A program made the position numbers and the translations under genes. This document shows, piece after piece, positions 9,508 to 44,468 of a DNA stretch of 45,158 nt (position 1 is its first letter; each line of letters starts with the position of its first letter). A model generated the notes under the pieces. It worked only from the letters and a program-made list of their open reading frames with translations, did not search any database and was not told where the DNA came from. This DNA comes from an uncultured Eubacteriales bacterium (GTDB taxonomy: Bacteria; Bacillota; Clostridia; Christensenellales; Aristaeellaceae). The stretch spans positions 1 through 45,158 of the forward strand of contig CACXBB010000014.1 in the NCBI GenBank assembly GCA_902765735.1, written 5' to 3'.

Positions 9508-9926
9508 ACATTGACGCCATACAGAACGGCATCGTCATCGACCACATCACCGCCGGGCGGGGCATGCGCCTCTACGAGCTGTTGGGCCTGGACGCGCTGG
9601 ACGTGTCCGTCGCCCTCATCAAGAACGCCGTCAGCCACCGAAACGGCGGGGTCGGCAAGAAGGACATCATCAAGATCGACTCCGACATCGCCATCAACTT
9701 CGACGTGCTGGGCTTCGTGGACCCCGGCGTCACCGTGAACATCATCCGGGACGGCCAACTCGTCGAAAAGCGGCGCATCGACATGCCCGAGCGGCTCACC
9801 AACGTCATCCGCTGCAAAAACCCCCGCTGCATCACCTCCACCGAGCGCGCCATCGACCACGTGTTCAAGCTCACCGACCGGCGGAACAAGGTGTATCGGT
9901 GCATCTACTGCGAGACGAAGGCGTAG
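9504..9926 (+). CDS. pyrI: Aspartate carbamoyltransferase regulatory subunit
   Basis: This 140-residue protein binds nucleotides and docks to PyrB through a zinc site. The N-terminal allosteric domain (residues 1-100) is followed by a zinc domain with all four ligands, C104, C109, C133 and C136 (CKNPRC and CIYC). PyrI in the operon means feedback control by nucleotides at enzyme level in addition to the PyrR-type leader. No terminator is visible after it; the next promoter starts 13 bases downstream. Confidence 0.96.
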
Positions 9927-15964: not shown

Positions 15965-17442
15965 ACAAGCGATTGACATTTCATCTGATCGGCAACGTGG
16001 TGCGCATGGCGGGGGCGCTGATGGCGCTGCCGCTGATCGTATCGCTGATCTACGGCGGCTCGGACGCCATGCCGATACTGATCTCCATGGCCATCACCCT
16101 CGCGGCGGGCTTCGCGCTGGCGCTGATCCGGCCCCGGCGGGACTTCCTGCGGGCCCGGGAGGGCTTCGCGGTGGTGGCGTTCAGCTGGATACTGGTATCC
16201 TTCTTCGGAGGGCTGCCCTTCTACTTCAGCGGCTACATCCCCTCGCTGGTGGACTGCTTCTTTGAGACGGTGTCCGGCTTCACCACCACCGGCGCGACCA
16301 TCATCCGGGACGTGGAGGCGCTGCCCAAGGGCCTGCTGTTCTGGCGCAGCTTTACCCACTGGGCCGGCGGCATGGGCGTGCTGGTGCTGTCGCTGGCGCT
16401 GATCCCCAAGATGGGCGCGCGCTCGATCCACCTGATGCGGGCGGAGTCCCCGGGTCCCTCCACGGACAAGCTGGTGCCCCGGGTGGCCAACAACGCCAAG
16501 ATACTCTACGCCATCTACGGCGGGCTGTCGGTGCTGATGGTGATCGCCCTTCTGTGCTGCGGCCTCAACCTGTACGACGCGCTGGTGCACATGTTCGGCG
16601 CGGCGGGCACCGGCGGCTTCGGCACCTACGGCAACTCCATCGCCCACTGGAACTCGGCGGCGGTGGACGTGGTGGTCGGCATCTTCATGGCGCTGTTCGG
16701 CGTGAACTTTTCGCTGTACTACTTCATCCTCAAGCGCAACTGGCGCGCCGCGCTGGGCAACAGCGAGCTGAAGCTCTACTGGTGCATACTGCTGGGCGCG
16801 ACGGTGCTGATCGCCATCAACATCATGCCACGGGCGGCGCAGGGCTTCTATTCCATCGCCGACGGCGCCAAGCCGGGGGGCAACTTCCTCACGGCTCTGC
16901 GGTATTCCTTCTTCCAGGTGTCGTCGATCATGACCACCACCGGCTACGCCACCGCGGACTTCAACCGCTGGCCCCAGTTCTCCCGGGTGCTGCTGGTGGC
17001 CATCATGTTCATCGGCGCCTCGGCGGGCTCCACCGGCGGCGGCATCAAGGTCATCCGCGTGCAGCTCCTGATGAAGAGCATGATCCGCGACATCCGCCGC
17101 ACCGTGCACCCCAAGTCCGTCAACACCGTCAAGCTCGACGGCCACACCGTGGACGAAGGCATACTCTCCGGCGTGCAGGGGTTCTTCTTTGCCTACATGT
17201 TCGTGCTGTTCGTGTCCACGATCATCGTGTCGCTGGACGGCTTCTCCTTTGAGACCAACTTCACCGCCGTGGTGGCCACGCTTTCCAACATCGGGCCCGG
17301 CCTGGGTATGGTCGGCCCCACCGGGAACTTCGCCGCGTTCTCCGACCTGTCCAAGATCGTGCTGTCCATGTGCATGCTGATCGGCAGGCTCGAGGTGTTC
17401 CCGATATTGATGCTGGTAGCACCGAGCGCCTGGAGGAAATAG
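15961..17442 (+). CDS. trkH: Trk/Ktr potassium channel-like subunit TrkH
   Basis: The 493-residue membrane protein forms the K+ pore. The family's selectivity-filter-like segments are seen at GFTTTGATI, GTGGFGTYG, TTTGYATAD and NIGPGLGMV, with ASAGSTGGGIKVIR before the last repeat. The start overlaps trkA (ATGA), giving a two-gene operon. A repeat array follows the stop codon, and no classic terminator is seen. Confidence 0.95.
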   Translation: MNKRLTFHLIGNVVRMAGALMALPLIVSLIYGGSDAMPILISMAITLAAGFALALIRPRRDFLRAREGFAVVAFSWILVSFFGGLPFYFSGYIPSLVDCFFETVSGFTTTGATIIRDVEALPKGLLFWRSFTHWAGGMGVLVLSLALIPKMGARSIHLMRAESPGPSTDKLVPRVANNAKILYAIYGGLSVLMVIALLCCGLNLYDALVHMFGAAGTGGFGTYGNSIAHWNSAAVDVVVGIFMALFGVNFSLYYFILKRNWRAALGNSELKLYWCILLGATVLIAINIMPRAAQGFYSIADGAKPGGNFLTALRYSFFQVSSIMTTTGYATADFNRWPQFSRVLLVAIMFIGASAGSTGGGIKVIRVQLLMKSMIRDIRRTVHPKSVNTVKLDGHTVDEGILSGVQGFFFAYMFVLFVSTIIVSLDGFSFETNFTAVVATLSNIGPGLGMVGPTGNFAAFSDLSKIVLSMCMLIGRLEVFPILMLVAPSAWRK

Positions 17443-18630: not shown

Positions 18631-18822
18631 ACCTCTTCCGTCAGCCCTTCGGGCTGCCACCTTCCCCTGAAGGGGAAGGCAAGACCTCTTCCGTCAGCCC
18701 TTCGGGCTGCCACCTTCCCCTGAAGGGGAAGGCAAGACCTCTTCCGTCAGTCCTTCGGGCTGCCACCTTCCCCTGAAGGGGAAGGCAAGACCTCTTCCAT
18801 CAGCATCAAAGGATGCTGACGC
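18631..18822 (+). repeat. Tandem 53-bp hairpin repeat, 3.5 copies
   Basis: Near-identical units start at 18631, 18684 and 18737, with a diverged partial copy from 18790. Each holds ACCTCTTCCGTCAG, the small hairpin CAGCCCTTCGGGCTG and the hairpin CCTTCCCCTGAAGGGGAAGG. Units abut directly and there are no spacers. The whole gap 18597-18928 is otherwise non-coding except for the promoter at its right end. Confidence 0.88.
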
Positions 18823-21762: not shown

Positions 21763-21915
21763 CAGCCTCCCTCTTAGAGGGAGGAGGCGCCGCGAAGCGG
21801 TGACGGAGGGAGTCAGCCTCCCTCTTAGAGGGAGGTGGCGCCGCGAAGCGGTGACGGAGGGAGTAAGCCTCCCTCTCCGAGGGAGGTGGCGCCGCGAAGC
21901 GGTGACGGAGGGAGT
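21763..21915 (+). repeat. Tandem 51-bp hairpin repeat, 3 copies
   Basis: Units at 21763-21813, 21814-21864 and 21865-21915 differ at only a few bases. Each carries the hairpin CCTCCCTCTTAGAGGGAGG, then GCGCCGCGAAGCGG and TGACGGAGGGAGT. Read in reverse, the layout (CCGTCA, TTCG hairpin, GCCACCT, CCC hairpin) matches the 53-bp family at 18631. A related CAGTCAGCTTCGCTGACAG copy lies at 21684-21702. The gap 21665-21922 holds nothing else. Confidence 0.88.
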
Positions 21916-31138: not shown

Positions 31139-32680
31139 ATGGCGATTGCGGAGAAGATCATCATACTGGATTTCGGCGGGCAGTACAACCAGCTCATCGC
31201 GCGGCGCGTGCGCGAGGCGGGCGTCTACTGCGAGATACTGAACTACGCCACGCCGATGGAGAAGTGGCGGGACGACGCGCTCAGGGGCGTGATCCTCACC
31301 GGCGGGCCCAACAGCGTCTACGCGGACGACGCGCCGCGGCTGGGCCGGGAGATCTTTGAGCTGGGCGTGCCGGTGCTGGGCATCTGCTACGGCATGCAGC
31401 TGATCAATTACCTGTTCGGCGGCAGGGTGGAGTCCGCGGAGGTGGGCGAGTACGGCCACACCGTGCTGCACACCGAGGACCGGGGTCTCTTTAAGGGCGT
31501 GGGCCGCGAGACCGCGGTGTTCATGAACCACAACGACCGCGTCAGCGCCGCGCCGGAGGGCTTCCACGTGGACGCCTGGACCGACCACTGCCCCGTGGCG
31601 GCGTTCTCCTGCCCGGCAAAGGGCGTGTACGGCGTGCAGTTTCACCCCGAGGTGAAGCACTCCGTGGAAGGACCGGCGATGCTTAAAAACTTCGCCTACG
31701 ACATCTGCGGCTGCTCCGGCGACTACCGCGCCGAGGACATGATCGACCGCATGATCGCCGACATCCGGGAAAAGGTCAGCGGCGGACGGGTGGTCGCGGG
31801 GCTTTCCGGCGGCGTGGATTCCTCCGTGGCCTGCGCCATCGCGGGCCGCGCGTTGGGGCCCGACCAGCTCACCTGCGTGTTCGTGGACCACGGCCTGCTC
31901 CGGCTCAACGAGGCCGAGCAGGTCATGCGCACCTACCGGGACCACCTGGGGCTCAACGTGGTGCACGTGGACGCCTCCGAACGCTTCCTCGAGGCGCTCA
32001 AGGGCGTCACCGATCCCGAGCGCAAGCGCAAGATCATCGGCGAGCTGTTCGTGCGGGTGTTCGAGGAGGAGGCCCGGAAGATCGACGCCGACTTCCTGCT
32101 CCAGGGCACCATCTATCCCGACAAGATCGAGAGCGGCATGGGCGGCTCCGCCACCATCAAGAGCCACCACAACGTGGGCGGCCTGCCCAAGGACAGCCTG
32201 TTCAAAAAGGACCACATCATCGAACCCCTGTCCCTGCTGTTCAAGGACGAGGTGCGCGCCGTGGGCGAGCGGCTGGGCATCCCCCGCGAGATGGTGTGGC
32301 GCCAGCCCTTCCCCGGCCCCGGCCTGGCCGTGCGCGTGATCGGCGAGATCACCCGCGAAAAGCTGGATATGCTGCGCGCCTGCGACGCCATCTACCTGGA
32401 GGAGCTCGAAAATGCCGGCCTCTCCGGTCAGATCTGGCAGTCCTTTGCCGTGCTCACCGGTGTGCATACCGTGGGCTGTATGGGCGATGACCGTACCTAT
32501 GGCTGCTGCGTCGCCCTGCGCGCCGTCATCTCCGATGACGCCATGACCGTCGAGGCCGCCGAGATCCCCTACCCCGTCCTCAAAAAATGTACCAGCCGCA
32601 TCATCAATGAGGTGCGCGGCGTCAATCGCGTGGTGTATGACGTCACCGGAAAACCGCCGGGAACCATTGAGTGGGAATAA
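31139..32680 (+). CDS. guaA: GMP synthase (glutamine-hydrolysing)
   Basis: Converts XMP to GMP. The 513-residue protein has an N-terminal class I glutaminase (GICYGMQLI, nucleophile C83; VQFHPEV), an ATP pyrophosphatase domain ([13 protein letters not shown]-loop) and a C-terminal dimerisation domain ending GTIEWE. ATG 31139 follows AGAGGAGG. An in-frame extension to 30995 is rejected because it lacks family similarity. From about 32430 codon choice becomes less GC-rich, and the 3' end is followed by apparent integration signals, which fits guaA 3' ends being a known insertion site for genomic islands. Confidence 0.96.
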
Positions 32681-32738
32681 GGTACAATCCGAGAAAGTGC
32701 CTGAAAACACGGGCTTTTCGAGGGTTGCGATAACCGGA

Positions 32739-32760
32739 TGATACTGTTTTGATACTATTT
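32739..32760. other. Tandem 11-bp repeats, probable integrase arm sites (attachment end)
   Basis: TGATACTGTTT (32739-32749) is directly followed by TGATACTATTT (32750-32760). Paired TGATACTATTT-like repeats are typical arm-binding sites of tyrosine integrases. They lie 59 bases past the guaA stop, at the switch from GC-rich chromosome to lower-GC accessory DNA. The core crossover site is probably in the last bases of guaA (ACCATTGAGTGGGAATAA); the matching right end is outside the window. Confidence 0.55.
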
Positions 32761-32798
32761 TCCGGGTTTCCATTATTCTGTAGGATAATACAAAAGTT

Positions 32799-32839
32799 GT
32801 CCTCTGGAAAACGACAAGATGTTTTCCAGAGGACTTTTT
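32799..32839. terminator. Strong terminator after guaA, likely bidirectional
   Basis: GTCCTCTGGAAAAC (32799-32812) pairs perfectly over 14 bp with 32821-32834, followed by five T residues. A-rich sequence on the left makes it usable for the minus-strand gene that ends at 32865. Confidence 0.92.
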
Positions 32840-32864
32840 GTATGTCGGGAGGTTTGTAGGATGT

Positions 32865-33161
32865 TTATTCGTCAATATTGGCTGATCTCTCCTTGCGCCG
32901 CTTATCGCGGGCCGCCTGTTCCAATTTGGCCTGGCTGGCGGGGTAGTTGTAGCGCCACTCGTCGTAATCCTGCTTGGTGATCATGCCGTTGGCGAGGCGC
33001 ATGGACTGCTTATGCCAAAGCTCAAGGACGTCATAAAGGTTCATGTCGGGATTGAGGGTGCGATCGAGGTGCAGGCATAACTCGCCGTCGATCTCCGCGA
33101 TCTTGAGACCATACATACTCAAGGATGTACCGATTGTAGCTGCGGCGGCTTCTTGTTTCAT
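32865..33161 (-). pseudogene. 3' fragment of an unrecognised gene joined to abiEii
   Basis: The frame gives 98 residues ending RYNYPASQAKLEQAARDKRRKERSANIDE. Its first 15 residues or so are only the AbiEii sequence read in another frame. From about SMYGLKIAEIDGEL on, it looks like the C terminus of a different protein (LWHKQSMRLANGMITKQDYD). It therefore seems to be a gene end fused to a truncated toxin gene by deletion or insertion. I cannot name the parent family. Confidence 0.5.
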
Positions 33162-33477
33162 CGATATTCGGAATCGTAAGCCCCAGCACCTCCGCAGTCT
33201 CTTTGATTGCTGCTTTCAGCTTTTTCATCTGCCCCTGGGACAGCTTTGTGTCGATTGTAATGTCGATGTCTTCAGAGAACCGTTTGATGACCTTGTGGCA
33301 CTTGGACAGGGAAGTTCCTCCTTTGAAAACCACAAATCCGAGCCGCTCCGAAAGTTCCCGGAGGATCATCGTCACATAATAATCCTTCTCGGCTACCACC
33401 GGGAGGATGTGAAACCGTTCACTTGCCAGGTTAACGGCATTCCTGAATTCTTCTTTGTTTTCATGTAGATACGCCAT
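33111..33477 (-). pseudogene. abiEii: AbiEii-type nucleotidyltransferase toxin, 3' truncated
   Basis: The start (MAYLHENKEEFRNAVNLA) and the nucleotidyltransferase core are normal: FVVFKGGTSLSKCHKVI and RFSEDIDITI with the catalytic acidic pair. Similarity stops after YNRYILEY; the frame then runs through foreign sequence to a stop at 33031. The full protein is near 290 residues, so more than half, including the C-terminal domain, is missing. It overlaps the antitoxin gene by 17 bases, the normal arrangement. Toxicity is unlikely. Confidence 0.75.
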
Positions 33478-34102
33478 TGAGCAACCCCACCTCATACATA
33501 TTCTTATAAATCCGTTCCGGGTAATAGGACAGGTATTTCCTCAAGGAATCAAAGCCTATCCGTTTCTTTTTCATATAACCCACCAATCTGTCCGTAAGCT
33601 CCGTTCCGTCAAGCTCGGAAATATCAACGATCTCTTTTAGGAGATCCAGGAACTGAAGCGTATTGGCATTCTGTTCGTCGATAGTCACATACGGCTTCTT
33701 AAGAATAACCCGCAGATTTGCAAGCTGCGTCTCCCGATACTCGGTAGTGGCCTTGTTGGTATATACCTCATACACCATCGGAACCTGTGTGGTGATCCCA
33801 AGCTGGTTTGCAAAAAGCATTCCGCCAATATATCCACAGCGTCCCGCGCCGTCCATCAGATATTTCTTTTTTATGACTTCTTCAACAGACAGGGTCGAGC
33901 CGGAACGAAATATGGATTTTTTCGGAAGATAATAAATCCCGGTGTCAAACCGCTTAAGCCGGCCATCCTCAGTCAGTTTTTTAAGCTGCTGCCTGACGGA
34001 CACATCCTTCACACCCGGAACACTGATATCCGATAGGAAAATCGGTTCGTTTTCAGAGTAGTTCTGGCGAAGGTACTCGTAAACAGTATCGATCTGCGCC
34101 AT
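33461..34102 (-). CDS. abiEi: AbiEi-type antitoxin / transcriptional regulator
   Basis: 213 residues with an N-terminal winged-helix part (VSVRQQLKKLTEDGRLKRFDTGIYYLPKKS), then a C-terminal antitoxin domain of the AbiEi/DUF6088 type (CGYIGGMLFANQLGITTQVP). Such proteins neutralise AbiEii and repress their own promoter. It looks intact, and GGAGG lies 8 bases before ATG 34102. With the toxin gene broken, it may survive only as a regulator or an anti-addiction remnant. Confidence 0.82.
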   Translation of the reverse strand: MAQIDTVYEYLRQNYSENEPIFLSDISVPGVKDVSVRQQLKKLTEDGRLKRFDTGIYYLPKKSIFRSGSTLSVEEVIKKKYLMDGAGRCGYIGGMLFANQLGITTQVPMVYEVYTNKATTEYRETQLANLRVILKKPYVTIDEQNANTLQFLDLLKEIVDISELDGTELTDRLVGYMKKKRIGFDSLRKYLSYYPERIYKNMYEVGLLNGVST

Positions 34103-34129
34103 ACTTCATTCCTCCATTTAATACATTTT

Positions 34130-34183
34130 AGAAGTATTCTACTTCTCGCTTGTTATTATACGTCTAAAGATCCTGTTTTGCAA
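34130..34183 (-). promoter_or_regulatory. abiE promoter with inverted-repeat operator
   Basis: On the minus strand TTGCAA (34178-34183), a 17-base spacer and TATAAT (34155-34160). Just downstream, AGAAGT (34130-34135) and ACTTCT (34141-34146) form an inverted repeat between the start site and the gene, a natural place for AbiEi autorepression. Confidence 0.75.
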
Positions 34184-34235
34184 GTCCTTTTAAGCAGTTG
34201 CTCTGCAACATTTTTGTAAAGACCCCCTGATAACG

Positions 34236-34293
34236 CAAAAAAGCAGCCCACCAAGCAAGCCATCCAGCGTTTGGATAGCAGCTTAGTGGGCTG
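34236..34293 (-). terminator. Terminator with AGCCCAC stem (copy 1)
   Basis: CAGCCCACCAAGC (34244-34256) pairs, with one mismatch, with 34281-34293; an inner CATCCA/TGGATA stem closes the loop. Read on the minus strand it ends in TTTTTT. It follows the 50-residue gene at 34299-34451. Two sibling hairpins occur at 35178 and 44661. Confidence 0.75.
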
Positions 34294-34298
34294 GTGTT

Positions 34299-34451
34299 TC
34301 AGGCACTCTGGCTTAATTCTGCCCGCAGGACTCTGACCGCATCCTCTCCGACCTTCACCCTGTCAACCTCTTTCAGGAACCACTCGACCGGGAACTCCCC
34401 GTCCTCCGGGTAGCCCATACACTGTGGAAATCTGCAAGGCAGATTTCTCAT
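34299..34451 (-). CDS. Small protein, 50 residues, unknown function
   Basis: The ATG overlaps the stop codon of the upstream gene (ATGA at 34448-34451), so translation is coupled. The sequence starts MRNLPCRFPQCMGYPEDGEF and continues PVEWFLKEVDRVKVGEDAV, giving two short Cys positions and a charged helix. It ends just before a terminator. Continuous reading, coupling and the terminator argue that it is real; I recognise no family. Confidence 0.55.
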   Translation of the reverse strand: MRNLPCRFPQCMGYPEDGEFPVEWFLKEVDRVKVGEDAVRVLRAELSQSA

Positions 34452-34819
34452 TCACCAGTTCCCCGCTGTTTACTGTACTTCTCTTCGGACTGCGGCTTGA
34501 GCTCCTCCAGCGTCCTGGTAACCCGACTCAGATCAGGACGGAAGCTGGCATGCTCATCCTCATCATCCAGATTGGCAAAATCATCCTCGGCAGATGTGGT
34601 TTCCCGGATCGGACGATAAATCGTATCATTTGAGGATACCGCATGCCGACCGTCTCTTATGATGTAAACTACATTATTCTCAACCCCGACCGTCTCTTTA
34701 AGACAGTTAGTGACGGGTTCCGTTGTAGCAAGATGCTCTGGCGGTATGTAGGGATCATACCGGGGTGCTCCGATTATGTTTTGTACATAATATCTTGAGG
34801 TAGCTGTTTTATTGTGCAT
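34448..34819 (-). CDS. Hypothetical protein, element-encoded
   Basis: 123 residues, hydrophilic, with an acidic middle (AEDDFANLDDEDEH) and no membrane segment or known motif. No good ribosome site precedes the ATG, so the true start is uncertain. It lies directly downstream of iteron module 1, whose own start-like codon opens only a short frame, and it may be the rear part of a rearranged gene. It is coupled to the 50-residue gene. Confidence 0.5.
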   Translation of the reverse strand: MHNKTATSRYYVQNIIGAPRYDPYIPPEHLATTEPVTNCLKETVGVENNVVYIIRDGRHAVSSNDTIYRPIRETTSAEDDFANLDDEDEHASFRPDLSRVTRTLEELKPQSEEKYSKQRGTGE

Positions 34820-34876
34820 TTTGTACAGTTTTCAGGCCGCTAAACGGGTATTATTTAGTACCTTATTACAAAAATC

Positions 34877-35173
34877 TGCATCCTCATCTATCTTAAAGAC
34901 GTTCCAAGTTGGTCAGTGGGGATAACCCCCACATGTAGTTCGATAAAGTTTGCCTGCTACTATATATGGTGTTTTCAGTGGGATTCGGCAGATATAACTG
35001 CTTAGTAGGGATAATGTTCATTTTTGAGATGGGGCAAATACCCCAGTAGGGATAATGTTCATTTTTGAGAATTGCCCGGATCAGCCCGGTCAGAGGGGAA
35101 TATGAAGTAGGGATAATGTTCAAAACATAGTAGGGATAATATTCAGATATTATGTAGGTAGGGATAATGTTCA
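34877..35173 (-). repeat. Iteron module 1 (49-bp block, palindrome, five iterons)
   Basis: The 49-bp block at 34877-34925 matches module 2 at 47 of 49 bases. Then come 33 bases, the near-palindrome ACTATATATGGT (34959-34970), 33 bases, and five copies of AGTAGGGATAATGTTCA at about 35004, 35045, 35106, 35129 and 35157. The first two are extended by TTTTTGAGA. The stretch 34820-35313 otherwise holds only a terminator. An open frame through it is just translated repeats. Possible roles are a replication origin, an operator array or insertion-sequence ends. Confidence 0.8.
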
Positions 35174-35177
35174 AAAT

Positions 35178-35246
35178 GAAAAGCCCACCAGGTCGGCTTC
35201 CTTGTTACGATGTGATATCGTTTCTTGGAAACAAACCCGGTGGGCT
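35178..35246 (-). terminator. Terminator with AGCCCACC stem (copy 2)
   Basis: AGCCCACC (35182-35189) pairs with GGTGGGCT (35239-35246). On the minus strand a short TTTT run follows. It ends the zinc-ribbon/HTH transcript just before iteron module 1. Confidence 0.65.
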
Positions 35247-35313
35247 GCTTATTATTCATTCAGTTCTTCAGTGCCTCGTCGAAAGGCGAAAATGTTATGA
35301 CGCTTTATCTCAA

Positions 35314-35520
35314 TCAGCGTCTTCTCTTCTCCCAATCAAGGGAGAAAGCCACATAACCACAATCCTTGCAGATGAATCCATCTGTCGGAGAATAAATCGG
35401 TTGATTCGACCCTCCGAATGGCCACTTCTCTTCTGGACCATTGATAGCAATATGGGTGTTCACATACCCTTTCTCAAGATTCTCGCTTCCGCAGCACAGG
35501 CATTTTTCGTATTTGATCAT
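35314..35520 (-). CDS. Small zinc-ribbon protein
   Basis: 68 residues with two CxxC pairs, CLCC near residue 7 and CKDC near residue 50, spaced as a zinc ribbon. The middle (YSPTDGFICKDCGYVAFSLD) is typical of small Clostridial zinc-ribbon proteins of unknown role. AGGTG precedes ATG 35520, which follows the HTH gene by nine bases, so both share the promoter at 35896-35924. Confidence 0.72.
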   Translation of the reverse strand: MIKYEKCLCCGSENLEKGYVNTHIAINGPEEKWPFGGSNQPIYSPTDGFICKDCGYVAFSLDWEKRRR

Positions 35521-35529
35521 ATCAGCACC

Positions 35530-35856
35530 TCACTCTACATCTTCATCAACCGGCTTCCCGGTCTTCTTGTACTTCCATCCTTCGGAATCCATATATCGTT
35601 CCTCGCCGAGGACGTATTCATGATGGAAGTATTTCACGATATCCAGATCCAGAGCCTCCAGTACCCGGCAGGCCACATCGAATGATGCTGTCCGGAGGTT
35701 CCTCTCCCCGCCCTCAAACTTTTGATAGTGCTGAATCAGGATCCCGGCTTTATCGGCTACCTGCTGCTGTGTAAGTCCGCAGGTTATGCGCCGCTCTTTA
35801 AGAAGCCCATCATTCTTTCATTGTGTATGTACCACTCTGAATCCTTCCAAAGCCAT
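35530..35856 (-). pseudogene. XRE-type HTH regulator with in-frame TGA near its start
   Basis: A good ribosome site (AAAGGAGA) leads to ATG 35856, but codon 13 is TGA (35818-35820). The same frame then continues as a clear helix-turn-helix protein: LLKERRITCGLTQQQVADKA, then DLDIVKYFHHEYV, to a stop at 35530. No alternative start exists before the HTH. Removing one A from ATGAAAGAATGATGG would give a normal start reading MKNDGLLKERR, so either a TGG-to-TGA change or a one-base insertion broke it. Confidence 0.75.
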
Positions 35857-35895
35857 GCTGCATATCTCCTTTTACATCCAGTTGTGTGCAAGGCC

Positions 35896-35924
35896 ATTAT
35901 ACACACAAATGGGTGTACTGTCAA
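35896..35924 (-). promoter_or_regulatory. Consensus sigma-A promoter of the HTH/zinc-ribbon pair
   Basis: On the minus strand TTGACA (35919-35924), a 17-base spacer and TATAAT (35896-35901), both perfect. The -35 box overlaps the last codons of the preceding gene. CACACAAATGGGTGT nearby has dyad character and may be an operator. Confidence 0.9.
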
Positions 35925-36313
35925 TATGCGGGTTTCGTCCTTCCCTCATGCACCTCAAGCGCCTGACACAGGTCAAAATAGACCTTGTGGCTGTCCGGAG
36001 CAAGACGCACCCCAGGCACTCGATATGTCAGCTTCTTCTTCCAACCGCAGCTCTGAAAGACAAACCGCACCAGATCCTTGCTCTTTATGTCATAGTGATC
36101 ACGGCTGAGGTTATCCGGGAGCCTGTTCGCGCCGCCGTCATCGATGTTGCACGGCTCTATCCCAAAAGCCAGGTCTTCCGGACTGAACAGAAAGTGAAAA
36201 TACTCCGGATACCCCATAGCAACAAGGGTCGTCTTGAATATCGTGATCCGGCCGGTATCCACATTAAAAGATATGCCGGGAGCCGAATAATCCCATATGA
36301 TATAGTCATCCAC
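35921..36313 (-). CDS. Element paralogue family member 3, function unknown
   Basis: GTG 36313 is preferred since GGAGGTGA lies five bases upstream, giving 130 residues; an ATG at 36328 includes that site. Segments SKDLVRFVFQSCGWKKKLTYRVPG and KVYFDLCQA correspond to TDSIYEHFGWDKKCRYKMLG and LYFVFDL of the gene upstream. The predicted fold is strand-rich with a conserved GW-K-YR core. It has no enzyme motif. It belongs to a family present at least three times in this 3-kb stretch. Confidence 0.65.
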   Translation of the reverse strand: MDDYIIWDYSAPGISFNVDTGRITIFKTTLVAMGYPEYFHFLFSPEDLAFGIEPCNIDDGGANRLPDNLSRDHYDIKSKDLVRFVFQSCGWKKKLTYRVPGVRLAPDSHKVYFDLCQALEVHEGRTKPAY

Positions 36314-36352
36314 GGTGATCACCTCCATTCTGGACGCACGTGTCCCTTGGCA

Positions 36353-37120
36353 TTACTGGTCGCGTGTGGGCTCCGGTTGTACCGGATCAGGTGATGTGGA
36401 TGCATCCGACTGTAATTGCGGATCTGCTTCCCTGGTCTTTTCCCGCACGCCCGTCAGCATCGCAATCTCCACAAAGCCGTCCATCTCTTTGACCTCGGTC
36501 TCCTTCTTGTACTGCTCCATCGGCACACCGAAGGTATTAGCGATATCATCCGAGTAATAGCCTTTTCTGGTATCGACCTTAACGACCTCGCCATTCTCGT
36601 CCACAGGCTCCTCACCCTTCTTCGGCTTCTCATTAAATATCTGCGGTACATTGAGATCAAAGACAAAGTAGAGTTTACCATCGTATGGGATCAGATATCC
36701 CAGCATTTTATAACGGCACTTCTTATCCCAGCCAAAGTGCTCATATATTGAATCCGTGAAATCAGGGCAGCGCATCCTGCGGCTCTTGCGCTTATCCTGC
36801 TTCGCTACGCACCAACGCAGAGCATGCTTGTCATTCTGGTCGCAGCCGGACACGGAGAAAAGTCCGGTCTCCTCGTCAAACATCAGCTTGACCCAGACCA
36901 CACCCTCCAGTTCCCTGATGCAGGCAGCATTGAATGAGATATTCCCATCCCGGAAAGTGACAGACGGATCTCGCGGACTTGGGAACAACTCCTTACGAAT
37001 AACCTTCATTCTGTCAGGATTGAACATTCCCATCAGTTCTTGCCGACGCGCTTCTCTGGCGGAAGAATCCTGATCCTGATTTATATTCTCGTTGATCTCA
37101 TTGATCTGATCCTCATTCAT
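36353..37120 (-). CDS. Element paralogue family member 1, function unknown
   Basis: 255 residues from ATG 37120, which overlaps the stop of an upstream frame (ATGA). The N-terminal part is rich in Asn, Asp and Gln. The family core NISFNAACIRELEGVVWVKL, then RWCVAKQDKRKSRR, then IYEHFGWDKKCRYKMLGY, then LYFVFDL, spans about 65-175. A variable charged C-terminal tail ends in a Pro/Ser-rich stretch. The core FNxxC, RWC, GW-K-YR and YF-FDL positions are shared with the paralogue at 37756. DNA or RNA binding is plausible from the basic KRKSRR run but unproven. Confidence 0.65.
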   Translation of the reverse strand: MNEDQINEINENINQDQDSSAREARRQELMGMFNPDRMKVIRKELFPSPRDPSVTFRDGNISFNAACIRELEGVVWVKLMFDEETGLFSVSGCDQNDKHALRWCVAKQDKRKSRRMRCPDFTDSIYEHFGWDKKCRYKMLGYLIPYDGKLYFVFDLNVPQIFNEKPKKGEEPVDENGEVVKVDTRKGYYSDDIANTFGVPMEQYKKETEVKEMDGFVEIAMLTGVREKTREADPQLQSDASTSPDPVQPEPTRDQ

Positions 37121-37533
37121 GCTGTCTTCTTCCACCCTTCCATAATCGTTTCTGCTTCCTTCATCAGGGCCGCCAGTTTATCGGCTGTGAAGGTACAGGT
37201 ATGAAGAAGCACCAGGGATCTGCAGGCGCTTTGGACCGGAAACACAGCCCTCAGACTGTTGGATTCCACGCCCGTTCTTATATGCCAGTTCAACCGTTGA
37301 GCGACTGATACTCTTCTCCTTACCTTCGATCCACATCTCGTTTCCGTATCCGTCCACACTTTTCCCGCTATAATGCCGTCCGCCTGAACCGCCCTCCTTG
37401 CTTACCGTATATCTGAACTTCGTAGCATTCTTATGTTCCTTGCCACGGCCGGATGTTTTGAAAGGATAGAGTTGGAAAGCGATCACCGTCTTCCACAGAT
37501 AGTATTCGTGACCGTATTCAACAGAAGCTCCAC
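37117..37533 (-). pseudogene. Degenerate chimeric coding stretch
   Basis: One frame (37178-37533) reads SVEYGHEYYLWKTVIAF, TSGRGKEHKNATKFRYTVSK and SISRSTVELAYKNG, and ends GPKRLQIPGASSYLYLHSR. It resembles a common small Clostridial protein ending in GPKKL...GASYLYP, but lacks a start and is cut short. A second frame supplies a short end (ADKLAALMKEAETIMEGWKK, stop 37117) that is translationally coupled to the next gene. The pieces do not form one intact gene. Confidence 0.5.
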
Positions 37534-37608
37534 GTACTCCACATCCTCAAATTTTCTCAGGCAGGCTGTATTGAACCGCAGCTTGCCGTTTATTACATTT
37601 TTTTGCAT
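37483..37608 (-). pseudogene. 5' fragment of a fourth paralogue
   Basis: ATG 37608 sits at the end of the 49-bp block of module 2, right after AAGGGG. The frame reads MQKNVINGKLRFNTACLRKF, then EDVEYVELLLNT, and stops after 41 residues. The part NGKLRFNTACLRKFEDVEYV aligns with NISFNAACIRELEGVVWVKL of paralogue 1. It is therefore the beginning of another family member, broken where it joins the chimeric stretch. Confidence 0.62.
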
Positions 37609-37794
37609 CCCCTTCTATCTTAAAGACGTTCCAAGTTGGTCAGTGGGGATAATAACAAGATGTAGTGTTTTTATATTTCATAAGCTACTATATATAGTGT
37701 TTTTGACTTGATTCAGGATATGGGACCACCAGAAGGGATAATGTTCATTTTGGGGTCAGGGGATATAGGCAGAAGGGATAATGTTCATTTTTGA
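37604..37794 (-). repeat. Iteron module 2 (49-bp block, palindrome, two iterons)
   Basis: The block 37604-37652 is 47/49 identical to module 1. The perfect palindrome ACTATATATAGT (37687-37698) follows after 34 bases. Iterons AGAAGGGATAATGTTCA start at 37731 and 37771, 40 bases apart, close to the 41 of module 1. The last iteron overlaps the 3' end of the paralogue gene at 37756. Spacing is conserved although the bases between are not, so the layout itself seems selected. Confidence 0.82.
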
Positions 37795-38391
37795 AATCAG
37801 CCAGAATAGACCCGGCTCTATTGGATTCTGGGCTTTCTCTTCAGCCATATCAGCGCGGATCTGCGCTGCATTCTCACCGAGATCAGCATCATCAACGCCT
37901 GCCGCTTCCAACCCGCGCTCCGTAAGAAGATTCTGATCGAACTCATCCAGGTCAAAGTAGATGAGGTACTCATCATCCGTTCCTGCCTCTATCGCCGGAT
38001 ATCCGACAACCCGGTATGAGTAGCCCTTACTCCAACCCATCATTTTATATATCCGGTCTCCGAAGGGCCTGCCCGTTATCTTTCGGCTGGTGCGTTTTCC
38101 ATCCTTATCGTTGCACCATCTCTTGGAATCCTTATCGAACTCCTGCGCTGGCCGGACATAGAGCCTGTGCTTTTTCCGGTCGATATACATCTGGATATGT
38201 ATTACGCCAACCATGCTGCGGACACAGGTTGCATTAAACGTAATCCCGTCCGGCCTGATGTTGGCTGTGATATCCTTAATCCGCGACATCAGCACACGGC
38301 TGACAACTTCGGCCTCGGAAGAATCCACCTCTTTAATTTGATCCTGGTTTATTCCCAGCATTTCCATATCAAACGTGCCGAATTCATTCAT
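37756..38391 (-). CDS. Element paralogue family member 2, function unknown
   Basis: 211 residues from ATG 38391, which overlaps the end of the ATPase gene (ATGAATGA); GGAG precedes it. The core is GITFNATCVRSMVGVIHIQM, RWCNDKDGKRTSRK, IYKMMGWSKGYSYRVVGYPA and YLIYFDLDEF, collinear with paralogue 1. The last residues (KMNIIPSAYIP) are encoded by iteron sequence, so an iteron has been captured as, or has replaced, the natural C terminus. Coupling to the ATPase suggests that they act together. Confidence 0.68.
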   Translation of the reverse strand: MNEFGTFDMEMLGINQDQIKEVDSSEAEVVSRVLMSRIKDITANIRPDGITFNATCVRSMVGVIHIQMYIDRKKHRLYVRPAQEFDKDSKRWCNDKDGKRTSRKITGRPFGDRIYKMMGWSKGYSYRVVGYPAIEAGTDDEYLIYFDLDEFDQNLLTERGLEAAGVDDADLGENAAQIRADMAEEKAQNPIEPGLFWLISKMNIIPSAYIP

Positions 38392-39364
38392 CGCTTCCGT
38401 CTCCATTCAAATCTTCAGTATTCTGGTTTTCCATGTGCCAGTACCATTTGCGCATTTTTCGGAATGAAGAAACTCCGAGCTTTTCCTTCGTTTCTTGCAT
38501 GGTCTTATCTCCGATTCCATATTGCTTCATTATGCTTTTTATCTTCAGAGACTCAACATCGCCTTCTGCAAGAGCTTCCTTAATCAGGATGGCAGCAAGC
38601 TCATGTTTATTCTTTGGAAGATCAGGTCTTTGTAACAGCCTCTTCTTTACAGTATTGTTTTCGACCCATTTGAAGCCTTCTTCTTTGGTCAGCGAAAACA
38701 TCAGATCATCACCGGCTGGAGCAAGGTTGTTCTTTACCTGTCTGACGATTCGCAAATCCCAGTCCTCTGGATCTCGTTCTACCATAAGCACACTTCTTGC
38801 AGCTGCCACCACATCAATACTTCCAAAGCTTCGGTATATATCCTTTTTTCCATCTGATTTGTTTAAATGGCTGATTAAAACAATCGCACACTTGTTAACC
38901 GTAGCCCATGATGCTAACCGGCGCATCAGCTTTCTCGCCTTTGTTATCATAGTGAGATCAGATTGTGTGCCAAGATATGCCTGAATTGGATCGAGTACTA
39001 CAAGACGGGGCCTGAATTCGGCAATCATACGCCCGATCCGCTCATCATCCAATGTAAGTCCATCATGGACTTCCTCATTGATAAAACCTATCTTTGTGCA
39101 ATCAGCCCCACATGAATCGAATCGCGGTTTAATCGTATCACCTGCGTTTTCCTCCGAGCACTGATAAATAACCTTACTTGGTCTTCCGATCTGGGAGCCA
39201 TCCGGCATTGTTCCACCTTTTGAAATCTCTGCTATAAGGTTCATCATCATGGTAGACTTTCCATCCCCCGGATCTCCAGCCACAATGGTAATCTTTCCAA
39301 TTGGGATGTATGGGTACCACAGCCAGTTTACAGTAGTTGCCTTCACGTCGCTATAAAGCGTCAC
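38384..39364 (-). CDS. RecA-fold ATPase, replication-protein (RepA-like) type
   Basis: 326 residues from GTG 39364. Walker A is GDPGDGKSTMM (about 30-40) and Walker B is RLVVLDPIQAYLG; AIVLISHLNKSDGKKDIYRSFGS supplies the sensor region. This is the AAA_25/RepA-like hexameric helicase family found in plasmids and integrative elements. An ideal ribosome site (AAAGGAGGG, 39395-39403) serves ATG 39388, but that frame reads ATG-GAA-TAG before continuing into this protein. Translation must restart at the GTG without a good site, or the gene is damaged. Confidence 0.78.
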   Translation of the reverse strand: MTLYSDVKATTVNWLWYPYIPIGKITIVAGDPGDGKSTMMMNLIAEISKGGTMPDGSQIGRPSKVIYQCSEENAGDTIKPRFDSCGADCTKIGFINEEVHDGLTLDDERIGRMIAEFRPRLVVLDPIQAYLGTQSDLTMITKARKLMRRLASWATVNKCAIVLISHLNKSDGKKDIYRSFGSIDVVAAARSVLMVERDPEDWDLRIVRQVKNNLAPAGDDLMFSLTKEEGFKWVENNTVKKRLLQRPDLPKNKHELAAILIKEALAEGDVESLKIKSIMKQYGIGDKTMQETKEKLGVSSFRKMRKWYWHMENQNTEDLNGDGSDE

Positions 39365-39421
39365 AAGGCTCGAAGAAAGCTATTCCATTGACCATCCCTC
39401 CTTTCCAGCCTGCACACTTGT

Positions 39422-39427
39422 ATTATA
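39422..39427 (-). promoter_or_regulatory. -10 element of the ATPase promoter
   Basis: TATAAT on the minus strand, 34 bases before ATG 39388. I see no good -35 at 17 bases, so an activator or extended site may be needed. The gap also carries one iteron-like CAGTAGGGAT (39491-39500). Confidence 0.5.
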
Positions 39428-39524
39428 CATTCCTCACCGCAATCTCACTACTAACAGGCTGATAGGGTTAGGGGGTTCTACCCTGTCTGCCAGTAGGGAT
39501 TTTCCGTAAGATTTCCTGGTTTTT

Positions 39525-39553
39525 TTAAGATTGCGCTATATTAGGTTTATACT
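39525..39553 (+). promoter_or_regulatory. Promoter of the element HTH gene
   Basis: TTAAGA (39525-39530), a 17-base spacer and TATACT (39548-39553), divergent from the ATPase gene. Confidence 0.6.
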
Positions 39554-39625
39554 CTGTTGCTATGTATTTTTCTTAGAGGTAATATGCACCTGCCTATGCG
39601 GGTAACACTGAAAGGCAGGTTTGTA

Positions 39626-39982
39626 ATGGAAACTGAAAAGAAAGAAATTGATTTTTTGAAAATGGGAGTGCGAATAAAAGCTTTTCGCGCTGACAAGGGC
39701 TTCTCGCAAGAAGACCTCGCTTCGGCTGTAGATGTAGACATCCATCATATAGCCAGTATTGAGAACGGAAGAAGGAATCCCAGTTTGAAATTGTTAATCA
39801 AAATTGCAAATGCCTTGAGAGTATCCGCTGACGATATTCTTTCTGACAGTCTGGATTACTCGAAGTCAACTGCAGGAACCGAAGTCCACTCTATTCTGAT
39901 GGATTGTAACCAAGATGAAATGAAAATGCTGATCAAAACTCTTCATTTCATGAAGGCGCTGTTCTCAGAATTTGGTGTTTAA
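39626..39982 (+). CDS. XRE-type HTH transcriptional regulator
   Basis: 118 residues. The HTH spans about 12-65: IKAFRADKGFSQEDLASAVD, then HIASIENGRRNPSLKLLIKIANAL. A short C-terminal helical part (NQDEMKMLIKTLHFMKALF) may dimerise. ATG 39626 follows AAAGGCAGG; an extension to 39557 has no ribosome site. It is the only plus-strand gene of the element here and is transcribed away from the ATPase gene, so it probably controls the shared gap. Confidence 0.82.
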   Translation: METEKKEIDFLKMGVRIKAFRADKGFSQEDLASAVDVDIHHIASIENGRRNPSLKLLIKIANALRVSADDILSDSLDYSKSTAGTEVHSILMDCNQDEMKMLIKTLHFMKALFSEFGV

Positions 39983-40003
39983 CCTCTGACATCATAACAA
40001 AAA

Positions 40004-40670: not shown

Positions 40671-41732
40671 TCATCTGTAGTACTCAGCGTACCACTCGGC
40701 AAAAGCTCTCAATCCCTCCCGGATGCCAATCTTCGGTGTGAAACCGTAGTCACGCTCCAAGGCTGCACTGTCAGCGTAGGTCACAGGCACATCTCCGGCC
40801 TGCATGCCGACCAGCTCCCGATGTCCCTCGAAGTCGTAATCGGCAGGAAGGACTCCCGCTCTGACCAATTCTTCCTGAAGCGTGGAGATATAGTCCAGCA
40901 GGTTCTCCGGCTGACCGCCGCCGATGTTATATACCGCATACGGCGGAATCGGCAGACCGTCTTCTCCGTTCTTCTTCTCCGGCGCACCCTGCATTACACG
41001 GTACACGCCCTCGACAATATCATCGATGAAGGTAAAATCCCGACGCATGTCGCCATAATTGAAGATCTGGATCGTCTCCCCTGCAACCAGCTTCTTTGTA
41101 GCAGAATAATAGAACATGTCCGGGCGGCCGGCAGGACCGTACACCGTGAAGAAACGGAGTCCCGTGGACGGGATATTGTAGAGTTTGGAATAGGCGTGTG
41201 CCAGCAGCTCGTCGCTCTTTTTGGTCGCGGCATAAAGGCTGACCGGGTTATCTACCTTGTCATCTGTGCTGAACGGCACCTTCTTGTTTCCGCCGTAGAC
41301 GGAGGAAGATGATGCATAGACCAGGTGCTCCACCGGATTGTGACGGCAGGCTTCCAGCAGATTGTAGAAGCCGATGATATTGCTCTCTATATACACATCA
41401 GGATGGTCGATGGAATACCGAACACCGGCCTGCGCCGCAAGGTTTACCACGATATCGAAGTGGTAGGTCTGGAAGAGATCGTCCACCAGGGCCTTATCCC
41501 CAATGGAACCTTTGACAAACACATGCTTGACCGGGGAGGCTTCCGCTGCGTTCTCGACCTGCGCCAGTCTCCACTCTTTGAGGCTGACCTCGTAGTAATC
41601 GTTCATGTTATCAAGGCTGACCACAGTGCCGCCGCTCATTTCCTTCAGCAAACGGATCACAAGGTTGGCACCGATAAATCCCGGTGAGCCGGTCACCAGG
41701 ATGGTTTTGTTGTTCAAATCTATCTTTTGCAT
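40671..41732 (-). CDS. UDP-glucuronate 4-epimerase-like NAD-dependent epimerase
   Basis: The 353-residue short-chain dehydrogenase/epimerase converts UDP-glucuronate to UDP-galacturonate. The Rossmann motif is VTGSPGFIGANLV (normally TGxxGFIG), the catalytic Ser is in YASSSSVYGGN and the YxxxK pair in SLYAATKKSDE. The insert SLDNMNDYYEVSLKEWRL is characteristic of glucuronate epimerases rather than GalE. The gene begins directly after the UGDH stop (TAAATG), preceded by AGGAGA, so the pathway UDP-Glc to UDP-GlcA to UDP-GalA is encoded in one operon. Confidence 0.88.
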   Translation of the reverse strand: MQKIDLNNKTILVTGSPGFIGANLVIRLLKEMSGGTVVSLDNMNDYYEVSLKEWRLAQVENAAEASPVKHVFVKGSIGDKALVDDLFQTYHFDIVVNLAAQAGVRYSIDHPDVYIESNIIGFYNLLEACRHNPVEHLVYASSSSVYGGNKKVPFSTDDKVDNPVSLYAATKKSDELLAHAYSKLYNIPSTGLRFFTVYGPAGRPDMFYYSATKKLVAGETIQIFNYGDMRRDFTFIDDIVEGVYRVMQGAPEKKNGEDGLPIPPYAVYNIGGGQPENLLDYISTLQEELVRAGVLPADYDFEGHRELVGMQAGDVPVTYADSAALERDYGFTPKIGIREGLRAFAEWYAEYYR

Positions 41733-42956
41733 TTAATCTCTCCTGAAGAGGTCACGGGTATAAACCTTCTCTTCCACATCGCCGAGCACATCCTGATCAA
41801 AACGGTTTGCAATGATGACATCGCTTTCCGCCTTGAATTTCTCCAGGTCACTTACAACCTTGGAGCGGAAGAACTCGCTGCCATCGTCCAGTGTTGGCTC
41901 GTAGATGATGATCGGAATGCCCTTTGCCTTGATACGCTTCATGACGCCCTGAATGGCAGAGGCGCGGAAGTTGTCGCTGTTACTCTTCATTGTCAGACGG
42001 TACACGCCGACGGTCTTCGGATTCTTCGCAATGATCTGATCGGCGATGAAGTCCTTCCTTACCGTATTCGATTTCACCACAGCCTCGATCATGGTCTGCG
42101 GCACATCCTTGTAGTTGGCAAGAAGCTGCTTGGTATCTTTCGGCAGGCAGTATCCGCCATAGCCGAAGGACGGATTGTTGTAGTGGCCGCCGATACGCGG
42201 GTCCATGCACACTCCGTCGATGATCATCTGCGTGTCCAGTCCCTTGGTCTGGGCGTAGGTGTCGAGCTCGTTGAAGTAGCTAACGCGGACAGCCAGATAG
42301 GTATTGGCGAACAGTTTGATCGCCTCAGCCTCGGTCAGATGAGCAAGCAGCACCGGGATGTTCTGCGGTTCCTGTCCGGCTCTATGCTCCTCCACTCTCG
42401 CGCCTTCCAGCAGAAGGTCGGCAAACATCTGTCCCTGTTCCTTCTGGTCGTCGTCGCAGCCGACAACGATGCGGCTCGGATGCAGGTTGTCATACAGAGC
42501 CTTGGATTCACGCAGGAACTCCGGGCTGAAGATGATGTTTCTGATGCCGTATTTCTTTCTCACAGATTCCGTATAGCCGACCGGGATCGTGGACTTGATG
42601 ACCATCAAGACATTCGGATTGACTTTCAGCGTCCACTCGATGGCGTCTTCCACAGCGGAGGTATCAAAGAAATGGTTCACATCATCGTAGTTGGTCGGTG
42701 TGGCGATTATGACCAGATCAGCGGAAGCGTAAGCAGCCGCCTTATCCGTTGTCGTGTGGAGGTTCAGCGTTCTGCTACCTTCCCTAGCTTCCTTGAAGAA
42801 CCGCTCAATCTCATCATCCTGGATCGGGCTGATGAACTTATTGAGCTTCTCTGCCTTTGCCTCTGTGGTGGTGATGGCTGTAACTTCATGCTTCTGGGCA
42901 AGCAGAACGGCAAGGCTCAGTCCAACGTATCCTACTCCTGCTACTGTGATTTTCAT
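41733..42956 (-). CDS. ugd: UDP-glucose 6-dehydrogenase
   Basis: 407 residues. It oxidises UDP-glucose to UDP-glucuronate with two NAD+. The NAD-binding N terminus is [20 protein letters not shown]. The catalytic Cys is in [19 protein letters not shown], and [10 protein letters not shown] and [12 protein letters not shown] are family signatures. It is closely related to the fused gene upstream; both end [14 protein letters not shown]. Two UGDH copies side by side suggest duplication within the element. Confidence 0.93.
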
Positions 42957-42974
42957 GTACTTCTGTCTCCTTTA

Positions 42975-44468
42975 TCAATCTCTTCTGAATAAATCTCTGG
43001 TATAAACTTTCTCTTCTACATCATCGAGCGCCGTATCGTAGCGGTTGGCGATGATGCAACCGCACATCTTCTTAAACTTCTTCAGATCGTTGACCACAAC
43101 GGAACCGAAGAATGTCGTTCCATCCTCAAGCGTCGGCTCGTAGATCACTACGGTCGCACCCTTAGCCTTGATCCGCTTCATGACGCCCTGGATGGAGGAT
43201 TGACGGAAGTTGTCGGAATTCGACTTCATGGTAAGCCGGTAAACGCCCACCACAACTTCCTTCTGGCGGCTTTCTCTGGCCGGATCGTAGGATTCGCTGT
43301 TACCGTAGGTCCCGGCAATCTCCAGAACACGGTCTGCGATGAAGTCCTTCCTGGTGCGGTTCGATTCGACGATTGCCTCGATCAGGTTCTCCGGCACATC
43401 CTGATAATTTGCCAGCAGCTGCTTCGTATCCTTCGGTAAGCAGTATCCGCCGTATCCGAATGACGGATTGTTGTAGTAGTCGCCAACTCTCGGATCGAGG
43501 CACACACCCTTAATGATCGGCGCGGTCTTCAGATGCTTCACCTCGGCATAGGTATCCAGCTCATTGAAGTAGCTGACGCGGAGTGCGAGGTAGGTGTTCA
43601 CAAACAGCTTGGTCGCCTCCGCTTCCGTGGTTTCCATGAACAGCACCGGGATGGATGTCTTGATGGCTCCCTGCTGCAGGAGAGCCGCAAACTCCTCCGC
43701 CGCTTTCATGTTCGCCTCATCACTTCCAACGATGATCCGGCTCGGATACAGGTTGTCATAGAGGGCCTTGGATTCACGCAGGAACTCCGGGCTGAAGATG
43801 ATATTGTCCATCCCCATCTTCTCCCGTACATGGACGGTGTATCCAACCGGGATCGTGGACTTGATCACGATGGTCGGCTTGATTTCTCTGTCCGCTGTGG
43901 CAATCTTAATCGCGCCCAACACTGCCTCGACCGCAGAACAGTCAAAGAAGTTGGTTTTCACGTCGTAGTTGGTCGGAGCCGCGATGATGATGAAGTCAGC
44001 GGTAGAATACGCTGTTTCGGCATCTGTGGTGGCCGTAAGACTCAGTCCCCGCTCCTCATGCTCCGCCATATATTTTTCGATGTACTCATCCTGGATCGGA
44101 CTCTTCCAGGTATTGATCTTCTTCACCTTTGCTTCCACGATATCCACAGCCGCCACATCATTGTGCTGGGACAGCAGGACAGCGAGTGAAAGGCCAACGT
44201 AGCCTGTTCCGGCCACAGCGATCTTCTTCCGGTCAACCGCTACCAGCTCCGCCTCGTCATCCACAATGACATCGGTCGGCTTAAAGCCAAGTACAGCACA
44301 GAGGCTAAGAAGTTGGTCTACAGACGGGCTATAGTCCTGCGCTTCAAGTCGTGACAGAATGGAACGGTTTATATTCGCCTTCTGGGAAAGCGCGGTCTGG
44401 GATAGTTTCAGTACCTTCCTCCGGCTGACCACGATATCCGAGAGGAGTTTTAGTGATAAATGCTTCAT
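42975..44468 (-). CDS. HTH-UDP-glucose 6-dehydrogenase fusion
   Basis: 497 residues. Residues 1-75 form an XRE-type helix-turn-helix ([20 protein letters not shown], then [20 protein letters not shown]). From residue 81 a full UGDH follows ([19 protein letters not shown] ... [13 protein letters not shown]), with a 20-residue insert near [15 protein letters not shown] relative to its neighbour. The frame is continuous and the ATG has AGGAGA before it, so it is a true fusion. The enzyme could sense UDP-glucose or NAD and repress its own operon; the upstream repeats support that idea. Confidence 0.88.

Follow-up and report, generated by a model that had tools for sequence, protein, structure and literature searches.

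A repeat module at the border of serine-recombinase elements that looks more like a DNA docking site than a replication origin

What is the role of a precisely spaced set of short direct repeats, or iterons, that stands twice beside the gene of a RepA-like ATPase? The question is raised by contig CACXBB010000014.1 of an uncultured Eubacteriales bacterium of the gut (assembly GCA_902765735.1), of which positions 1 to 45,158 (45,158 nucleotides, referred to as the window) were analysed, and in which two copies of such a module lie between 34877 and 37794. An original prediction, made from the sequence alone, had offered three answers, namely the replication origin of an element, a regulatory array reading into the adjoining paralogue genes, or reduced IS21-type insertion sequence (IS) ends. 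Here, we use related loci (L numbers) and genomes (G numbers) to describe the place of the module at the border of elements carrying a serine-recombinase operon where, judged by its sequence, it looks more like a docking site for the insertion or excision of DNA than a replication origin.

Structure and spacing of the module

A recount confirmed the basic architecture that had been predicted. The two 49-bp blocks (34877-34925 and 37604-37652) are identical at 47 of 49 positions and are followed, after 33 bases in module 1 and 34 in module 2, by a 12-bp palindrome and, after a further 33 and 32 bases respectively, by the first copy of a 17-bp iteron, AGNAGGGATAATGTTCA, which is present five times in module 1 and twice in module 2, the first pair being spaced 41 bp and 40 bp apart. 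That spacing is kept while the intervening bases differ also held true, with only 14 of 33 and 17 of 32 spacer positions agreeing in an ungapped comparison of the two modules. Two details needed amendment: the palindrome is present in both modules but is perfect only in module 2 (ACTATATATAGT), the copy in module 1 (ACTATATATGGT) being imperfect, and the modules are non-coding in general, but the open frame 37756-38406 reads into module 2. The similarity of the modules runs about 13 bases outward past the 49-bp block (a 77-nt family at 34863 and 37590, 84% identical). The parts of the two modules, and the hairpin that adjoins module 1, are as follows.

34864-34925 (+): module 1 outer end (TATTACA...) and end block; similarity to L018 ends at 34864, and identity across eight modules is near chance outside -31 from the anchor
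34959-34970 (no strand): module 1 palindrome ACTATATATGGT, from sequence
35004-35173 (+): module 1 iterons, 17 bp each, at 35004, 35045, 35106, 35129 and 35157
35182-35246 (no strand): terminator-like hairpin AGCCCACC...GGTGGGCT between the iterons and the operon 3' end, from sequence and fold
37591-37652 (+): module 2 outer end and end block, starting where the recombinase remnant ends, by match to L018
37687-37698 (no strand): module 2 palindrome ACTATATATAGT, from sequence
37731-37787 (+): module 2 iterons at 37731 and 37771

A chance origin of the iterons is excluded, because seven matches at up to three mismatches were observed in comparison with 0.20 expected by shuffling, and none of 100 shuffles reached seven. 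In the whole genome from which the window comes, the 30-bp core occurs at these two places alone when up to three mismatches are allowed. Exact core patterns were found in one of 396 genomes of the order (the window's own), in two further contigs of the genome collection and in one real viral contig (L003, with two modules); a second viral match (L020) looks like a chance core match inside an apparent coding sequence, and a blastn search of module 1 against plasmids and phages gave no matches. The family of window-type modules comprises those read in L003 (two), L018, L019, L085 and L098, from four other genomes or records (G510, G509, G024 and G634), with L018 carrying an additional degenerate second module. 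The palindrome was found in six of the seven modules of alignment A3, being missing from L098, the hairpin is kept in L003, L018, L022, L047 and L098, and the gap pattern of the module 1 iterons is repeated in L003:6745-6914 and in L018, with the first iteron placed 10 bp closer to the block.

Across eight modules the distance between the block anchor and the first iteron is 105, 113, 114, 115 or 126 bp, and the first iteron gap measures 39-41 bp in all seven modules that have two or more iterons. The first iterons share a helical phase (R 0.87, P 0.0008 for all eight modules; R 0.84, P 0.02 for distinct lengths), as do the second (R 0.78, P 0.01), while no clear phase is seen for later iterons (R 0.42 and 0.38, P 0.06 and 0.16); the modules are related, so that the P values serve as a guide only. 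This conserved, phased spacing is the best sign in the sequence that block and iterons may act in one complex. Loss of the spacing in other copies, which the original prediction had named as telling against it, was thus not seen, whereas modules standing apart from the ATPase and paralogue genes, which it had named likewise, do occur: L019, L085 and L003:5446-5760 are stray copies without such genes of their own adjoining.

The likeness to a DnaA box that had been pointed out stands in so far as TTATCCCCA is one mismatch from the E. coli box. However, block and iterons are both changed to GGGTGA in module L003:5446-5760 (one iteron reads GGGAGA), and this joint shift is therefore unlike a fixed host DnaA box, so that this reading was set aside. 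A decoy for a CsrA-type RNA system was likewise discarded, as the iteron letters vary freely among groups.

A constant place and a sharp outer limit

From right to left the window holds a divergent helix-turn-helix (HTH) gene, the ATPase gene, a second paralogue gene, module 2, a recombinase remnant, a first paralogue gene, a gene for a 135-aa protein, an HTH gene, the hairpin, module 1 and its flank. The RepA-like ATPase foreseen next to the modules is borne out by its match to AAA_25 (E 7e-20). The genes in question are listed below.

35533-35856 (-): operon HTH gene, interrupted in the window by an in-frame stop close to its start; tblastn 94% to the L003 HTH gene
35921-36328 (-): gene for the 135-aa protein; in distant elements, sequences related to it are weak matches to the paralogue family
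36353-37135 (-): first paralogue gene, with no Pfam and no NCBIfam match
37117-37596 (-): CcrB-like serine recombinase remnant, only residues 406-448 and 591-615 remaining, with the cut at module 2
37756-38406 (-): second paralogue gene, its 3' end extending into module 2
38384-39364 (-): RepA-like AAA_25 ATPase gene (Pfam PF13481, E 7.3e-20)
39557-39982 (+): divergent HTH gene (Pfam HTH_3)

The same order recurs in L003, L018 and L098, which carry the ATPase gene, a CcrB-like recombinase gene with the paralogue as its C-terminal domain, a paralogue gene, the 135-aa gene, an HTH gene (in two of the three), hairpin, iterons, palindrome (not in L098) and block, followed by unrelated DNA. A large serine recombinase gene, as would be expected at a serine-integrase attachment region, adjoins the array, whole in L003 and as a remnant in the window. 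The intact gene (L003:9356-11203) encodes Resolvase and Recombinase domains and is nearest to CcrB (E 2e-29).

The position of the array is constant: it lies between the 3' end of the serine-recombinase operon and the point at which the similarity of the copies ends and unrelated, often truncated genes start. Arrays of different sequence occupy this place in other elements, the iterons of L022 and L047 being TTAGCCCAACCGTC/TTATCCCATCCGTC, about 31 bp apart, and those of L048 and L049 GCAAGTTGGTAAAA, 31-37 bp apart where read; a model of the module recognises the L022 end at E 4.7e-5. The tmRNA (transfer-messenger RNA) and tRNA-gene 3' ends are classic integration sites, and two distant relatives have their arrays beside them. 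In L050 the first repeat lies 85 bp past the tmRNA 3' end (CCCGTAG, ten copies vs at most one in 97 other locus windows), and in L101 the repeats start 38-106 bp past the 3' end of tRNA-Ala (six copies vs at most three in 110 windows), both motifs having been picked after the arrays were seen. Neither L050 nor L101 gave an ATPase match within the stretch fetched. A k-mer scan of 31 loci, with five short operon loci (L052, L099, L102, L103 and L106) outside it, found arrays near the operon in the window, L003, L018, L048, L049, L098 and L050 and an operon-less array in L085; by eye, arrays were also seen in L022, L047 and L101, which the scan had passed over. Searched with the module model, 24 of 308 family genomes gave matches at E 0.01, of which only G000, G024 and G634, members of the model, were strong; G011 (E 4.8e-6) has a block-like stretch beside a frame that is not obviously cut at the module, and the other 20 (E 4e-4 or worse) are probably chance matches.

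The outer limit of the array is sharp. L048 and L049 are 91% identical over 9.6 kb until L048:2408/L049:9571, 19 bases past the last L049 iteron, where they diverge, and in L049 the sequence of rfbB resumes at 9586, 15 bases after the divergence point. An rfbB match is present in 11 of 12 genomes, the query genome included, and in the eight that were compared, of ten matching relatives, the sequences upstream of rfbB are like one another and unlike L049 (45 bases shown). Module 2 starts inside a recombinase gene, with 37498-37591 matching the L018 recombinase gene and 37591-37794 the L018 module. Over eight modules, mean identity reaches 0.74-1.00 between -15 and +14 of the anchor, drops to 0.51-0.58 between -30 and -16 and lies at 0.19-0.34 farther out. 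Both window modules, L018 and L085 share the end GATGCA-N6-TGTAAT, with a TGTGAT variant in L003:5446, and these five modules have four different flanks because window module 1 and L085 share theirs (by eye).

Of the 12 flanks translated, six adjoin a nameable gene fragment, and in each case the cut falls on the 5' side and the gene points away from the module. These are a GFO/IDH/MocA oxidoreductase (L047), rfbB (L049), Polysacc_synt_2 (L098), UGDH (second module of L018; residues 3-57 only, cut very near its start and also at the far side), a serine recombinase (window module 2) and part of a lysin gene (L018, by visual comparison with the L086 protein). Four of these, a small set to begin with, are sugar or polysaccharide genes by family or neighbourhood. 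The flanks of L048, L019 and L022 hold unnamed open frames reading in the same direction, and those of window module 1 and the two L003 modules nothing clear. Readings by eye of the L048 flank as a methyltransferase and of the L019 flank as sigma-like were dropped, neither having a Pfam match.

A possible element end and its rivals

We see roughly an even chance that a prophage-like integrating element has in this module its terminal recombination region on the operon side; at the array, element and flank meet in a sharp boundary, as would be expected of a serine-integrase attachment region, with three modules differing in their outermost bases. The outer block would be the element end and probably the core half-site of the recombinase, and the phased iterons inside it would bind a protein encoded by the element; the likeliest candidate is the paralogue domain, which extends the CcrB-like recombinase at its C-terminus and also exists in the form of separate proteins. 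Block, iterons and proteins could then form a nucleoprotein complex that would place the recombinase at the end and set integration or excision. The presence of two modules in the window is probably explained by a nested history, in which the end of a second element (the ATPase gene at 38384, the paralogue gene at 37756 and module 2) came to lie inside the broken recombinase gene of the first (module 1), both having decayed; the window contig does not carry the N-terminal portion of this cut gene.

The appeal of serine integrases is that short sites suffice for them and no accessory DNA is needed; an arm-like iteron array at the end of a recombinase element is unusual for this class. A more specific proposal, which we regard as possible but doubtful, is that of a serine-recombinase prophage group with a two-part end, in which a core and phased, lineage-specific iterons are read by the recombinase-fused paralogue domain (an intasome with arm sites), and which enters unrelated sites in constant orientation to the cut gene, often in surface-polysaccharide genes. 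If true, it would provide a natural family showing another control of integration and target choice in gut prophages, and the array would serve as a concrete marker by which the ends of phages of this group could be found in metagenomes. The titles and abstract openings of the literature searched contain no description of such an array, which is not proof of its absence from print.

Several observations weigh against an element end of this kind. The window-type element yielded neither a second end nor a duplicated core or an empty site, with no search for the missing halves of cut genes made beyond the stretches read, so that a crossover at the array end is unproven; iterons appear at one end only in whole-record scans allowing at most one mismatch, by which diverged copies could be missed; and the well-studied serine integrases are not known to need iteron arms. 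L003:6625, L019 and L098 differ outside the block and lack the TGTAAT end. The L047 oxidoreductase flank has no close relative with which its junction could be compared (7 of 29 genus genomes match it, all but its own over short pieces), and, because gene fragments make up the flanks as a mosaic, some of the junctions could be due to deletions. In 12 distant relatives the k-mer scan detected no array near the operon (L051, L053-L060, L100, L104 and L105), several on short contigs, and eight phage loci (L109, L133-L139) gave no match to the module model. For the modelled first paralogue, no fold match was convincing (the best in the PDB had E 0.026). In G491, a cluster of four recombinase-like genes, together with a split phosphoesterase gene, suggests that a further integration site lies some 560 bp outward of the array end.

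An iteron replication origin, in which the RepA-like ATPase is a replicative helicase, the iterons recruit an initiator and the excised element replicates, is unlikely. It would account for the direct repeats and their conserved spacing, for the lower GC content of the array (0.39-0.40 vs 0.60 for the window) and for the matches of the adjoining AAA_25 ATPase to phage primase/helicase (E 5e-13) and DnaB-like (E 2e-10) families of PHROG. The ATPase matches helicase families, however, and no replication-initiator family matched the operon proteins tested; block and iterons drift together from the DnaA box in one module. This answer of the original prediction is further weakened because arrays occur in two relatives (L050 and L101) without an ATPase match in the stretch read and because the array sits at the element border.

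Unlikely, too, is control at the operator or transcript level, in which iterons and palindrome would regulate transcription past the operon end, possibly outward into the flanks. The array adjoins a terminator-like hairpin in several relatives, HTH genes lie within the operon, and the six named flank genes are all cut at the 5' side and read outward, as though outward transcription mattered. A perfect sigma-70 consensus promoter (12/12, spacer 17) at 35924-35896 (-), between the 135-aa and HTH genes, is directed towards module 1, and a 9/12 promoter-like site overlaps the module 2 palindrome. Yet promoter-like sites are not in excess (10 vs 8.2 in shuffles), and an Rfam scan of 32600-40000 gave three matches up to E 5, all far below gathering scores and none over a module. 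The RNA fold of module 1 is unremarkable on the plus strand (z -1.4) and moderate on the minus strand (z -2.4), the main stem there being the hairpin. An array reading into the paralogues, as had been predicted, found no support because it stands at the operon 3' end in the relatives read and because of this lack of promoter excess.

Ends of an insertion sequence or miniature inverted-repeat transposable element (MITE), IS21-like and lodged beside the operon by chance, would explain the stray operon-less modules (L019, L085, L003:5446-5760) and are very improbable, since the module keeps its place beside operon and hairpin, arrays of unrelated sequence occupy the same place in other elements, and exact core patterns are rare. 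An element end is thus the best supported of the three answers first offered, but not one of IS21 type, because no IS21 transposase domain or other IstA/IstB-type match was found among the flanking proteins tested (10 + 9), the neighbours are serine recombinases, and no inverted second array appeared at up to one mismatch, leaving no pair of ends with istA/istB between them.

Phage context, known systems and neighbouring features

The first paralogue (36353) has matches in 14 of 120 and 20 of 308 family genomes, its own included (the second search at E 1e-20), and in 19 phage records, of which the nine annotated ones opened are all labelled Ca. Heliusvirales and carry it between a recombinase-sized gene and a gene of about 390 bp. 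Its model (mean pLDDT, predicted local distance difference test, 76) has one viral structure match (E 9.7e-4), to an uncharacterised protein; sliding clamps are many among the top PDB matches, none significant, and this likeness was rejected. In G491, terminase, polA, DUF2800 and single-stranded DNA (ssDNA)-binding family genes, the last presumably the former DUF2815, lie on the same contig in stretches beside the operon. Candidate tail and lysin genes were read from translations in L048, L061, L098 and L108, and the L086 lysin has glucosaminidase and endolysin domains.

These features resemble Ca. Heliusvirales/Heliusviridae, temperate phages of gut Firmicutes, by the paralogue gene in the nine annotated records and by the four G491 genes, which are among nine shared genes of the group (PMC9226167). 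In contrast, no phage structural gene was identified in the window, none of the nine shared genes was identified there in searches that did not cover all nine, and the eight phage loci lack a match to the module model. The main text of the paper on the group (PMC9226167) does not contain the words integrase, recombinase or attachment site. Staphylococcal cassette chromosome (SCC) elements, with ccrAB or ccrC and the cch helicase, are similar in that the recombinase is nearest CcrB and adjoins an ATPase or helicase-like gene; helicase genes of SCC elements, as one account describes them (PMC7581432), can be likened to the ATPase here, a parallel that counts in favour of the origin reading. The recombinase scores 102.7 bits against NF047343, below the equivalog cut-off of 900, and the present elements differ further by their phage context and their one-end iteron array.

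Elements such as IS21, Tn7 and Mu have repeated transposase sites at their ends and an AAA+ partner. The present elements share with them a site array at the element end, an element ATPase (with a match to the PHROG phage DNA transposition protein family, E 4e-11) and unrelated insertion flanks, but have serine recombinases rather than a DDE transposase, a one-end array and an ATPase of RecA/RepA type. Plasmid iteron origins are akin in their direct repeats of about 17 bp near a helicase-like gene, whereas the array here lies at an element border, is irregularly spaced and occurs where no ATPase was found.

Besides the paralogue-fused recombinase gene, clusters of four to five tandem serine recombinase genes occur at L086 3282-10148 and L084 3980-9230 (both by eye) and at L098 9914-14929 (tblastn). 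A metallophosphoesterase gene (Pfam in L084; L048 1358-1846 and L084 9357-10037) is whole at one end of the G491 prophage and, at the other, is present as a 3' fragment cut in its GNHE motif; this makes it a candidate attachment gene for the recombinase cluster in G491.

The flank beyond module 1 is common to L085 (by eye) and holds AbiE-type genes, namely those of an AbiEii-type nucleotidyltransferase and DUF6088 (AbiEi-like by position) at window 33031-34102 (-), between guaA and module 1. The motif TGTCTTAAAGA..GGTCGG is repeated at window 34640-34720, beside this flank, and at L085 8557-8697 and 10469-10609, beside a polysaccharide-like cluster; it resembles part of the block and may belong to another regulatory system. 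UDP-glucose dehydrogenase-like and epimerase genes, whole or as fragments, are found repeatedly next to the elements (window 40671-44468, L003, L018, L098, L022 and L047); by eye, some of the former begin with an HTH-like segment.

The repeat scans flagged other repeat arrays in the window at 11749-11935, 18631-18798 and 21764-21915; the first, when read, was a degenerate repeat unrelated to the module. In L062, GTTCACATCG repeats 23 and 40 bp apart (17057-17180) lie directly behind an apparent transposase gene fragment. Three AGGGGATA-like repeats, one within GGGGGATAACCCC and reminiscent of the window block, lie at L109 79-118 (Dorea phage NatCom_31361), near the record end and upstream of a recombinase-sized gene.

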